Positions 28,415 through 55,020 of a stretch of 64,000 bases of DNA are shown here, one piece after another (positions within the stretch are counted from its first letter, which is position 1; each line of letters opens with the position of its first letter). A program made the position numbers and the translations under genes. Source of the DNA: Chryseobacterium cucumeris (GTDB lineage Bacteria > Bacteroidota > Bacteroidia > Flavobacteriales > Weeksellaceae); NCBI RefSeq assembly GCF_016775705.1, contig NZ_CP068760.1, forward strand, positions 1,302,001 to 1,366,000, in the 5' to 3' direction. Below the pieces are notes generated by a model. It saw nothing but the letters and a program-made list of their open reading frames with translations. It was not told where the DNA came from and made no database searches.

Positions 28415-28775
28415 CGGATTATTTAAGCAAAATAAAGGTATCAAAATTATTGGCACCTTTATCAAATTAAGTTATGTTAAGCTGTTTTTATATTAAGCAA
28501 ATGATCTTTTTAAATAAGTTTATTAGAAATCTTCGGTATTTGCTAAATAAAAAATATTAGAAAACGCAATGGCGCCAAGATTTTTTTGAAATATCAGCAG
28601 TTTTTAAGGCGCAAGGATTTTATCTATGATAAAATTTATTAGATTCATTTTGCTGGAAATCTTCGATTTCCTTGCGTCTTAAATTAAACAATACGTATGA
28701 TAAAACTTTGCACCTTTGCGTTTACCCAACAAAAATTGAAGTTCATTGTACACGTTCCCTATCTAAAAAATAGCC
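28415..28775. other. Intergenic region carrying a MITE-like repeat
   Basis: About 360 bp with no credible gene. The right half is the palindromic repeat described at 28561-28730; the left part (28415-28560) is plain AT-rich leader of the Crp/Fnr gene. Confidence 0.6.
28561..28730. repeat. MITE-like imperfect palindromic repeat, copy A
   Basis: About 170 bp with terminal inverted similarity: the left end reads AAAACGCAATGGCGCCAAG and the right end CACCTTTGCGTTTACCCAAC. Internal words TTTTTAAGGCGCAAGGATTTTATC and TCGATTTCCTTGCGTCTTAA form a second, inner pair of arms. It aligns over most of its length with 52701-52901. No ORF lies inside, so it would be a non-autonomous element. Confidence 0.75.
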
Positions 28776-51722: not shown

Positions 51723-52694
51723 ATGTCAAAAAGATTTAAAATCCTGTGTTTATTATTCGTGATTGCTATTATTGCAAGCGCAATTATTAATCTGAACACA
51801 GGATTTTTAAGTTTAAGCTTCCAGGATTTCTTTCAGGATTCTGCTCAGAATCAAATTGCTGAAATCCGTATCAACCGTGTTCTGGTGATGATGCTGGCTG
51901 GGATTTCCATTCCTACTTCTGGTTTCCTGATGCAGGAATATTTTCAAAACCCGCTAGCTGGGCCTGATATATTGGGGATAACATCAGTCGCCAGTTTATC
52001 AGTTGCCTTTTATATTTTCTTTTCCCATACTATTTCCCTTCCTGAATTTTTACAGAACAGTTTCCTGAGTTTATCAGCTATTGGGGGAAGTTTACTGCTA
52101 ATGTTGATCCTGCTGTCAATGTCTAACAGATTTCAGGACAAATCATATCTTATTATCTTTGGATTTCTTGTCTCTGCTTTTGCCGGAGCTATTGTTTCTC
52201 TGCTTCAGTTTTATGCAGAAAATCAGAGTCTTAAAAACTATATTTTATGGTCTTTCGGAGCGAATAATATGGTAACGAGGAATCAGATCTATGTACTTTC
52301 CGTCCTGGTTTTAACCGGAATGTTGATCTGCTTCAGAGCGATAAAACCGCTCATTGGAAATTCTCTGGGCAATTCCTATGCACAAAGTTTAGGGGTCAAT
52401 CTGAAACAGCTGAAACTCTTAATCATAGCAGCATCTTCTCTCCTATCTGCTTCTGTTACTGCATTTTTAGGACCTATTCTGTTTATTGGAATCATTGTGC
52501 CGCACTTTTGCAGACTTGTTTATAATCCATCCAGATTATGGCAGCAATGGATTCTTAATATGTTTCTGGGAATGCTGATTATGTTATTTTTCTCTGTCAT
52601 TGCCGAAAAAACACAGATTCCTTTGAATGTAATAAGCTCTGTATTCGGAATTCCTGTGATTCTGATGATGCTGTTGAAACAGAATAAAGTGTGA
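51723..52694 (+). CDS. FecCD family ABC transporter permease (iron/haem/cobalamin type)
   Basis: Multi-spanning permease of 323 residues, shaped like BtuC/FhuB: about 10 helices, with GISIPTSGFLMQEYFQNPLAGPDILGITSVASL as the conserved N-terminal motif and GNSYAQSLGVNLKQLKLLIIAAS and IVPHFCRLVYNP in the C-terminal half. It pairs with the ATPase at 53479-54402, but a GxxExxY gene and repeats lie between them. No substrate-binding lipoprotein gene is in view, so the third part must be elsewhere. The substrate (siderophore, haem or vitamin B12) cannot be told from sequence. Confidence 0.92.
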   Translation: MSKRFKILCLLFVIAIIASAIINLNTGFLSLSFQDFFQDSAQNQIAEIRINRVLVMMLAGISIPTSGFLMQEYFQNPLAGPDILGITSVASLSVAFYIFFSHTISLPEFLQNSFLSLSAIGGSLLLMLILLSMSNRFQDKSYLIIFGFLVSAFAGAIVSLLQFYAENQSLKNYILWSFGANNMVTRNQIYVLSVLVLTGMLICFRAIKPLIGNSLGNSYAQSLGVNLKQLKLLIIAASSLLSASVTAFLGPILFIGIIVPHFCRLVYNPSRLWQQWILNMFLGMLIMLFFSVIAEKTQIPLNVISSVFGIPVILMMLLKQNKV

Positions 52695-53002
52695 TTTTTT
52701 GTTGGATAAACGCAAAGGCGCAAAAAACTTTTAAAAATTTTATATTTTTAAGACGCAAAGATTTTATCTCCGATAAAATTGAGCACCTCATATTCTAAAC
52801 AAAAAATTTCTCCAATATCTTGCTGAAAATCTTCGATTTTATCGCGCCTTAAAATATTACACAAAATATTAAAAGCCTTTGCGTCTTCGCGTTTACCCAA
52901 CATTTCGCATCAATAGGCATACTATGTTCCAAAATCATTAGTAACAGTCTTTGTAATTATTAAGCAACTATTCATATATTTAAGTCCAACAAAACACCAC
53001 AA
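52695..53002. other. Spacer between permease and GxxExxY genes
   Basis: About 310 bp, two thirds of which is the MITE-like copy B (52701-52901). The rest is the plain AT-rich leader of the GxxExxY gene. The repeat interrupts what should be a compact transporter operon. Confidence 0.6.
52701..52901. repeat. MITE-like imperfect palindromic repeat, copy B
   Basis: About 200 bp. Terminal arms GTTGGATAAACGCAAAGG and GCGTCTTCGCGTTTACCCAAC are inverted with respect to each other (about 26 of 32 positions over the wider arms), and an inner pair (AGACGCAAAGATTTTATC and ATTTTATCGCGCCTTAAAAT) repeats the plan. The same segments occur in the same order in copy A (28561-28730). It contains no ORF. Confidence 0.8.
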
Positions 53003-53380
53003 ATGACAGAAAATGAATTATCAAAAGTAGTTTTTGAAACAGGTTTAAAGATTCACAGAAAACTTGGAGCAGGATTATTTGAGCATGTGTACGAAGAATG
53101 CATGTTCTATGAGTTAACAAAAGCAGGATTTTTAGTAGAAAAGCAAAAGCTGCTTCCAATCATTTATGAAGATTTGAAAATAGAGAACGCTTTCAGACTC
53201 GATATGATTATTGAAAACAAAGTAATTCTGGAAATAAAAACAGTTGAGTATATATCACCTACTCATAAAGCGCAGCTTTTAACTTACTTAAAAATGACAA
53301 ACTGTAAATTGGGATTATTACTTAACTTTCAATCTGATGTCTTCAAAAACGGAGTAACAAGAATTGTGAACAACTTATAA
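53003..53380 (+). CDS. GxxExxY family protein (PD-(D/E)XK-like)
   Basis: Small protein of 125 residues. The family signature Gly24-x-x-Glu27-x-x-Tyr30 lies in GAGLFEHVYEE. The core RLDMIIENKVILEIKTVE reproduces the Asp and Glu-x-Lys pattern of the PD-(D/E)XK nuclease fold (Pfam PDDEXK_3 group). Members are widespread in flavobacteria, but their DNA or RNA substrate is unknown. This gene sits between copy B and the partial copy C of the palindromic repeats, splitting an ABC operon. The setting suggests it was inserted, possibly together with the repeats. Confidence 0.85.
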   Translation: MTENELSKVVFETGLKIHRKLGAGLFEHVYEECMFYELTKAGFLVEKQKLLPIIYEDLKIENAFRLDMIIENKVILEIKTVEYISPTHKAQLLTYLKMTNCKLGLLLNFQSDVFKNGVTRIVNNL

Positions 53381-53390
53381 AATAAAACAT

Positions 53391-53472
53391 GATAAAAATT
53401 TGACAAAGTCAAATTCCTTGCGTCTTAAAACATTATTTTTGTAAAAAACTTTGCGTCTTCGCGAAAACGAAC
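53391..53472. repeat. Partial MITE-like repeat, copy C
   Basis: It matches the right half of copies A and B: TTCCTTGCGTCTTAAAAC followed by AACTTTGCGTCTTCGCG. A small hairpin (AATTTGAC/GTCAAATT) lies at its left end. Its outer part is inverted relative to the left arm of copy B, so copies B and C face each other across the GxxExxY gene. It ends 6 bp before the ABC ATPase start. Confidence 0.7.
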
Positions 53473-53478
53473 AAAAAC

Positions 53479-54402
53479 ATGCATCTACAGATCAAACAGG
53501 CAGATATCGGCTACAATACAACTTTAATCTCCAATGCCAATGCAGATTTAAAGCTTGGTGATGTATGCCTGCTGATTGGTAATAACGGTGTAGGAAAAAC
53601 AACATTAATCAAATCTATCCTGCATCAGCTCCCTTTACTGAATGGGGAAATTTCTATTAATGGAAAAAATGTAAAAAATCTTTCGGTAAAAGAGATTGCG
53701 GAGAATATTGCCATTGTCTTCTCAAAATCGGTAATTCCGCAGCATTATACTGTTGAAGATCTCATTTCTCTGGGAAAGTATATCTACTACCCTTTTTATT
53801 TTGAACTTAGAAAAGAGGATCGCGAAGAGGTTCGTCATATTATTGAAGAACTGGATCTTAATCAGTACCGATATACTCTTTTGAAAAACCTTTCTGACGG
53901 AAATCTTCAAAAAGCATTTATCGGACGGGCTATCACCCAAAATTCGCCTATTATCATTCTGGATGAGCCTACTACCCATCTGGATGAAAAAAATAAAATT
54001 ATTATTCTTAAAACTTTAAGAAAGCTGGCTAAGGAACAGAACAAGCTTATCCTTTTTTCTTCCCATGACTGGCGACTGGCTAAAGAATTCGCAGACAAAA
54101 TATGGTATGTAAAGGAAAATCATTTGTATTCCGGAATTGTTGAGGACATTTTGCTTCAGCATAATGAACTTACAAATGCTTCCTTATTTCAAATCAATGA
54201 GACCTTTATTCCGCCAGTAATCTCTGCACCGCAGTTTCACAAGGAAATGCTGTATTCTCTGCTTCAAAAAAACTTCCAAAAAGACCTGTCTGACCTGAAT
54301 TTCGAATTTCAGAACCCATTTTGGGTAATTGCTAAGGATTCCTCCACCTATCAATGTGAATCTTTTGAAGAAATCATCATTTTAGTCTCAAACATTCATT
54401 AA
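53479..54402 (+). CDS. ABC transporter ATP-binding protein (iron/haem type)
   Basis: ATPase of 307 residues for the FecCD permease upstream. Walker A is GNNGVGKTT near residue 36, the Q-loop region IAIVFSKSVIP, Walker B IIILDEPT, the D-loop HLDEKNK and the H-loop SSHD. The signature is LSDGNLQK where LSGGQ or LSDGQ is usual (Asn for Gln). A C-terminal extension of about 60 residues (SLLQKNFQKDLSDLNFEFQ...) goes beyond the usual 250-residue FepC/BtuD length and is common in Bacteroidetes relatives. The start is close behind repeat copy C, so transcription from the permease promoter has to cross the inserted DNA. Confidence 0.9.
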   Translation: MHLQIKQADIGYNTTLISNANADLKLGDVCLLIGNNGVGKTTLIKSILHQLPLLNGEISINGKNVKNLSVKEIAENIAIVFSKSVIPQHYTVEDLISLGKYIYYPFYFELRKEDREEVRHIIEELDLNQYRYTLLKNLSDGNLQKAFIGRAITQNSPIIILDEPTTHLDEKNKIIILKTLRKLAKEQNKLILFSSHDWRLAKEFADKIWYVKENHLYSGIVEDILLQHNELTNASLFQINETFIPPVISAPQFHKEMLYSLLQKNFQKDLSDLNFEFQNPFWVIAKDSSTYQCESFEEIIILVSNIH

Positions 54403-54428: not shown

Positions 54429-54448
54429 ATACTATGCATGCATAGTAT
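54429..54448. promoter_or_regulatory. Distal candidate MarR operator: 20-bp perfect palindrome
   Basis: A perfect palindrome with core TATGCATGCATA, centred near 54438.5. The same core occurs in the longer palindrome at 54505-54538; the two centres are 83 bp apart, close to eight helical turns. Confidence 0.7.
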
Positions 54449-54504
54449 TATGCTAATCATACAATTTAATCCATTTATTTACAGCCTATTAACAAAATTT
54501 AACG

Positions 54505-54538
54505 TTAATAAATATTATGCATGCATAATATTTATTAA
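54505..54538. promoter_or_regulatory. Proximal candidate MarR operator: 34-bp perfect palindrome
   Basis: Perfect inverted repeat centred between 54521 and 54522, with core TATGCATGCATA flanked by AT arms. It overlaps the first bases of the -7 element TAAATTTG (54536-54543). A bound regulator would cover the promoter of the MarR/beta-oxidation operon. Confidence 0.75.
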
Positions 54539-54564: not shown

Positions 54565-55020
54565 ATGATGGATCATAATAAGGAAAAAATAGAAAACGTA
54601 GATTTAATTTTAAAACAGACCTGGTTGGCTGTTTCTAAAATGTACACAGAATTAGCCCAGGAACATGATTCCACAGCGGTACAGGCACTCACACTTTTAA
54701 AAATAGATCCTAAAGAAGGAACCCGAAGTACCAATCTTGGACCGAAGATGGCTATTGAACCCACTTCTTTAACAAGAATCATCAAACTTCTTGAAGATAA
54801 CGGATACATCTATAAGGAGAAGACCACCACTGATAAAAGAGAGGTGATCATCAAACTTACAGATAAAGGATTAAACTCCAGAAATATGTCTAAGGAAGTC
54901 GTTGTGAATTTCAACAAGAAGGTGATGGAAAAAATTTCTCCGGAAAAACTGGAGGCTTTCAAAGATGTGATGGGTGAAATCATGAAAATAGCCAACGAAT
55001 TATTAAATAACAGAAAATAA
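54565..55020 (+). CDS. MarR family transcriptional regulator of the fatty-acid oxidation operon
   Basis: Winged-helix regulator of 151 residues. KEGTRSTNLGPKMAIEPTSLTRIIKLLEDNGYIYKEKTTTDKREVIIKLTDKG gives the MarR helix-turn-helix and wing, with the DKRE turn. First gene of the operon, 53 bp before fadN, with a small hairpin between. The ATG at 54565 is used; the next codon is also ATG. By position it should respond to acyl-CoA or fatty acid and act at the two palindromes upstream; this is inference. Bacillus uses a TetR-type FadR for the same operon layout, so the control protein differs. Confidence 0.88.
   Translation: MMDHNKEKIENVDLILKQTWLAVSKMYTELAQEHDSTAVQALTLLKIDPKEGTRSTNLGPKMAIEPTSLTRIIKLLEDNGYIYKEKTTTDKREVIIKLTDKGLNSRNMSKEVVVNFNKKVMEKISPEKLEAFKDVMGEIMKIANELLNNRK

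Follow-up and report, generated by a model that had tools for sequence, protein, structure and literature searches.

Between the permease and ATPase genes of an iron ABC transport operon in Chryseobacterium cucumeris lies a short gene bracketed by palindromic repeats, and the question that this locus raises is whether the gene and the repeats belong together and, if so, as what kind of genetic system. We examined the locus within a window (that is, the whole stretch of 64,000 nucleotides analysed, in whose coordinates positions are given) and compared it with related genes and repeats elsewhere. A preliminary description had proposed that the encoded GxxExxY protein may act on, or spread with, the repeats.

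The gene (53003–53380) lies, as that description had it, between a complete element, copy B (52700–52902), and a partial one, copy C (53397–53472), and profile matches to the FecCD permease upstream (51723–52694, plus strand) and the FecE-like ATPase downstream (53479–54402, plus strand) bear out its view that the segment splits the permease from its ATPase. On the basis of sequence, folding and copy alignment, copy B is a ~200-bp palindromic member of a dispersed family and comprises a left end and a right end, arranged as outer arm, inner arm, hairpin 1, centre, hairpin 2, inner arm and outer arm, with GTTGG at 52701 and CCAAC at 52901. The outer left arm GTTGGATAAACGCAAAGGCGCAAAAA (also given as GTTGGATAAACGCAAAGGCGCAAA; 52701–52726, minus strand; sequence and folding) is followed by the inner left arm AAGACGCAAAG with hairpin 1, ATTTTATC-tcc-GATAAAAT (52750–52779, minus strand; sequence and copy alignment), by hairpin 2, GAAAATC-ttc-GATTTT, with the inner right arm GCGCCTTAAAA (52825–52854, plus strand; sequence, folding and copy alignment), and by the outer right arm CCTTTGCGTCTTCGCGTTTACCCAAC (also given as TTTGCGTCTTCGCGTTTACCCAAC; 52876–52901, plus strand; sequence and folding). 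As single-stranded DNA, copy B folds at −34.5 kcal/mol (z = −6.0), with none of 200 shuffles as good. Copy C is a right half only, in which a hairpin of its own (53397–53415), AATTTGAC-aaa-GTCAAATT, and the inner arm CCTTGCGTCTTAAAA (together 53397–53430, plus strand; sequence) precede the outer right arm CTTTGCGTCTTCGCGAAAACGAAC (53449–53472, plus strand; sequence and motif orientation). This last arm and the left arm of copy B face each other from opposite sides of the gene, in keeping with the inversion reported between the two. As the right arm of copy B and the arm of copy C point in the same direction, the order at the locus is left end, right end, gene, right end, and it is this unit that separates the permease from its ATPase.

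The gene (plus strand) encodes a protein of 125 amino acids that matches both TIGR04256 (E = 6e-40; 136 bits against a cut-off of 35) and PF13366 (E = 2e-38; 132 bits against 22). The GxxExxY motif is present, with G24, E27 and Y30 invariant in the aligned family, and among 54 diverse sequences 12 positions are invariant, including D67, E77, K79 and Q91, with Y95 nearly so; the Asp and Glu-x-Lys of a PDDEXK_3-type protein, noticed earlier by eye, are therefore family-wide features. D67, E77 and K79 place a D..ExK site on a PD-(D/E)XK fold, and the conserved residues (E27, Y30, D67, E77, K79, Q91 and Y95) yield the pattern D..ExK..QxxxY, which is typical of the RecB/Cas4/lambda-exonuclease branch. 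A sequence search of the PDB with the protein gave no match; the predicted structure (pLDDT 96.6) is closest among solved folds to SSO0001 (4ic1), which we take to be a Cas4, and then to lambda-type exonucleases (for example, 1avq), and Cas4 models give weak sequence matches in agreement with the fold. From the profile matches, alignment and predicted structure, the protein is probably a minimal Cas4/lambda-exonuclease-like nuclease, differing from those enzymes in its small size and in having repeat arms of its own, and from CRISPR-associated Cas4 in that the window locus carries transport genes as neighbours and no CRISPR genes. In line with this likeness, an annotation pipeline has labelled a gene expected to be cas4 as GxxExxY (PMC8934634). 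Pfam matched PDDEXK_3 only, with no HUH Y1 transposase domain in the gene. Pairwise dN/dS among 12 orthologues is ~0.05, a sign of strong purifying selection, and the function of the protein has thus been kept.

If gene and repeats are partners, arms should be commoner beside such genes than beside others, as the preliminary description had anticipated, and they are. In relatives, sites of the motif around 80 GxxExxY loci cluster less than 700 bp from the gene and are almost lacking beyond 1 kb, with a density of 0.3–0.6 per kb within 300 bp upstream compared with ~0 beyond 1 kb; its orientation near the genes is strict (the reversed control gave 0, and downstream copies within 700 bp all run in the same direction). 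Because these 80 loci collapse to 22 independent neighbourhoods, the test was repeated per neighbourhood and without an assumed motif, scoring flank-to-flank inverted similarity, one value per neighbourhood, against 314 control open reading frames (ORFs). Ordinary ORFs of the same loci served as the main controls, since the planned control, the S23 four-helix-bundle family, was not a clean negative. The flanks scored above the controls in the 22 neighbourhoods (p = 5e-10), in a wide set of about 78–80 loci from named genomes (p = 6e-21; found by searching contigs with a seven-sequence alignment; chiefly Bacteroidota, plus isolated loci under the labels Melioribacter, Chloroherpeton, Planctomycetota, Pyrinomonadaceae, Methylobacter and Rhizobium) and in a phylum-wide sample of 96 genes drawn from the better-scoring matches (p = 4e-37). 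Chained CRCNRAK-type units faced the gene from both sides in 55% of the 96 phylum-wide genes, 47% of the wide set and 36% of the relatives' set, compared with ~0% of 494 control ORFs. With each of 71 independent neighbourhoods represented by a single gene, both arms were present in 34 and one or both in 56, and about a fifth of independent loci had no arm by the motif test. The GxxExxY gene and the arms are thus associated across Bacteroidota and, in isolated cases, in other lineages; most of these genes carry arms, and other ORFs almost never have facing ones.

The repeats also occur without the gene. The motif TTTGCGTCTTTGCG (at most one mismatch) has 32 sites in the 4.8-Mb source genome compared with none for the reversed control, and some 30 further copies of the copy B family lie elsewhere in the genome, nearly all of them intergenic and gene-free, most adjoining unrelated genes, a preponderance of gene-free repeats that REP/RAYT systems share; one complete gene-free copy falls within the window (28560–28730). 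Seventeen copies from the source genome and congeners (~196–284 nt) can be aligned with copy B over its full length; their ends and hairpins are conserved, their centre varies, and there is no conserved GTAG or CGTC tag. In a comparison that ignores kinship, the family's repeat count has a median of 10 in genomes with the permease-locus gene and 2 in those lacking it (p = 0.002). A tandem array of about four gene-free copies was also seen in the source genome (C1:684400–685050, near 684 kb). Gene and arms thus form one genetic unit across Bacteroidota, and gene-free copies of its left and right ends are dispersed in intergenic sites. We consider it probable that the GxxExxY gene and its flanking arms are a nuclease–repeat system that works like a REPtron with an unrelated enzyme.

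The strongest rival, which we nevertheless regard as unlikely, is a classical small mobile element, in which left end, gene and right end transpose together as an insertion sequence, the GxxExxY protein is transposase-like and the gene-free copies are MITEs. Its case rests on gene and arms being found at 71 independent neighbourhoods sampled, on occurrences in Methylobacter, Rhizobium, Planctomycetota and Acidobacteria-type contigs, and on the variety of states at the murC–ftsQ junction of one genus, where full elements (609–643 bp) and left end–right end–gene arrangements (618–621 bp) coexist with a gene-free 218-bp derivative, left ends on their own and empty junctions (24–88 bp); as exceptions, two genomes there have a gene with different arms and one has a decayed gene without arms. 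Of the congeners compared at the permease–ATPase junction, at least 12 keep an intact unit, others have a decayed one, and many lack gene and repeats alike, two of these having a permease that is 94% identical. Gene and arms are therefore usually gained or lost together at both junctions, which speaks for the nuclease–repeat system, and the insertion between permease and ATPase, being common to at least 12 congeners, is not recent. Against transposition, GxxExxY paralogues in the same genome share at most ~75% nucleotide identity apart from tandem copies, and near-identical dispersed gene-bearing copies were absent from all genomes compared, gene-rich ones included. The gene occurs in 122 of 248 sampled Bacteroidota genomes (up to 12 matches per genome, several diverged paralogues being common), on only 8 of 72,556 plasmids and, among 50,697 phage records, in none; it behaves as a chromosomal gene, mostly single copy per locus type. 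Nor did comparison of orthologous sites in divergent species resolve a clean target-site duplication, several 'empty' sites being collapsed remnants or not alignable. At the permease–ATPase locus of one congener, the permease 3′ end and the palindromic element form a unit of ~460 bp, present in about three copies in front of a decaying GxxExxY gene, and other congeners have repeated units of ~270–310 bp there. The Methylobacter and Rhizobium contigs carry GxxExxY genes with typical Bacteroidota-like arms in proteobacterial bins, which suggests horizontal transfer or contaminated bins.

Alternatively, the repeats may be MITEs of an unrelated transposase, or tolerated hairpins, with the GxxExxY protein either taking no part or serving, as a housekeeping nuclease, to trim or maintain them. 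We hold this to be improbable: most genomic copies do adjoin unrelated genes, and activity of the protein on the arms is something that we infer, but facing arms are found at about half of GxxExxY loci phylum-wide compared with ~0% of other ORFs, and the type of arm follows the protein. Arms consist of iterated units of 7–9 nt (~9 nt) whose sequence differs by locus (CGCAAAG, CACAGATT, CACAAAAG, TTAAG and others), and mapping arm type onto the GxxExxY protein tree required 12 changes compared with 21.3 for shuffled labels (0 of 200 shuffles as good). Arm type thus tracks protein phylogeny; inheritance of the arms with the gene would suffice to give the same pattern. The source genome has three other GxxExxY genes at unrelated loci, with arms of types CACAAAAG, CACAAAT and CACAGATT, and the CACAGATT-type repeat is itself dispersed there (25 sites compared with none for the reversed control).

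Very improbable in our estimate is a role of the arms in RNA, whereby they would pair in the transcript and enclose the ORF in a long stem that serves its processing or autoregulation, as at the S23 ORF of 23S rRNA intervening sequences. The long imperfect stem, and the inverted flanks that four-helix-bundle S23 genes also have, would suit such a role; however, gene-free copies lie between many unrelated genes, an Rfam scan gave no match above the curated cut-off, and the 17 aligned copies have no compensatory base changes, so the conservation seen in the copy B family may be one of sequence alone. Finally, the idea that the gene has since ancestral times been a stable component of the iron ABC operon and serves transport, to which retention of the gene at the permease–ATPase locus in at least 12 congeners might point, was rejected because of the empty permease–ATPase sites that the preliminary description had suggested looking for and that exist among many congeners (other GxxExxY copies also sit at murC–ftsQ and further unrelated loci), and is practically untenable.

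For the REPtron-like system that we favour, the following course can be envisioned. The cognate arms, probably folded into hairpin or branched DNA, would be recognised by the GxxExxY protein, which may cut at or near them; host repair or replication might then copy or lose left-end/right-end elements, thereby dispersing gene-free copies, while the gene would stay mostly single copy per locus type and be inherited with its arms. Several of the results above count against this reading: no near-identical dispersed gene-bearing copies, clean target-site duplication or compensatory base changes emerged, about a fifth of independent loci lack an arm by the motif test, and murC–ftsQ has its exceptions. 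Of the two possibilities proposed at the outset, that the protein spreads with the repeats is well supported over evolutionary time, whereas that it acts on them is what we infer. More broadly, GxxExxY proteins may constitute a large class of chromosomal Cas4-like repeat-dispersing nucleases, each with a cognate family of inverted iterated-unit arms, that are the source of many CRCAAAG/CACAGATT-type intergenic repeats of Bacteroidota and are unrelated to any known transposase–repeat pair, a proposal that we judge evenly balanced between true and false.

TnpA-REP (RAYT) genes, the partners of REP sequences in REPtrons, are single copy, without evidence of mobility and unlike transposases in their presence on plasmids, and they lie close to, and correlate with, dispersed palindromes (PMC8266576). 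Like the gene of a REPtron, the GxxExxY gene is chromosomal, mostly in single copy, seldom found on plasmids and without visible mobility, and its cognate palindromic repeats lie beside it, are dispersed intergenically and correlate in number with its presence. It differs in its enzyme (PD-(D/E)XK rather than an HUH Y1 recombinase) and in its repeats (iterated ~9-nt units in ~200-bp elements rather than GTAG-tagged palindromes of 20–40 bp). Given the absence of an HUH domain and the different size and make-up of the repeats, the system is REPtron-like and not a REPtron. MITEs such as BrickBuilt of Porphyromonas gingivalis (cited in PMC5771137) are likewise short, gene-free intergenic elements with inverted ends; here, a partner gene lies between the arms, and the unit has no DDE transposase. 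The S23 ORF of 23S rRNA intervening sequences (PMC4990558) is similarly a very small ORF whose role is unclear, within a short selfish element, but its protein has another fold and its element sits inside rRNA.

In the literature searched we found no description of GxxExxY/PDDEXK_3 function and no stated source of the CGCAAAG-type and CACAGATT-type scattered repeats, and in openly accessible literature no earlier account of their partnership, which we provisionally regard as new and previously unrecognised. With gene and repeats linked, a substrate for the protein and an origin for the scattered repeats both become testable. If the REPtron-like reading is true, it would represent a second, independent invention of such a partnership, from a Cas4-type nuclease, and would bear on how Cas4-type nucleases came to handle repeats and hairpins.

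Two further observations were made. S23 (TIGR02436) genes also have inverted flanks (loci L148–L177), some with TTAGA-type units (L162 and L176), significant compared with swapped flanks but weak compared with control ORFs; these genes and flanks may represent another such system. Beyond the ATPase gene, two near-identical palindromes, at 54429–54449 (ATACTATGCATGCATAGTATT) and 54512–54532 (ATATTATGCATGCATAATATT), lie upstream of a MarR-type regulator gene (54571–55020) and are possibly its operator sites.
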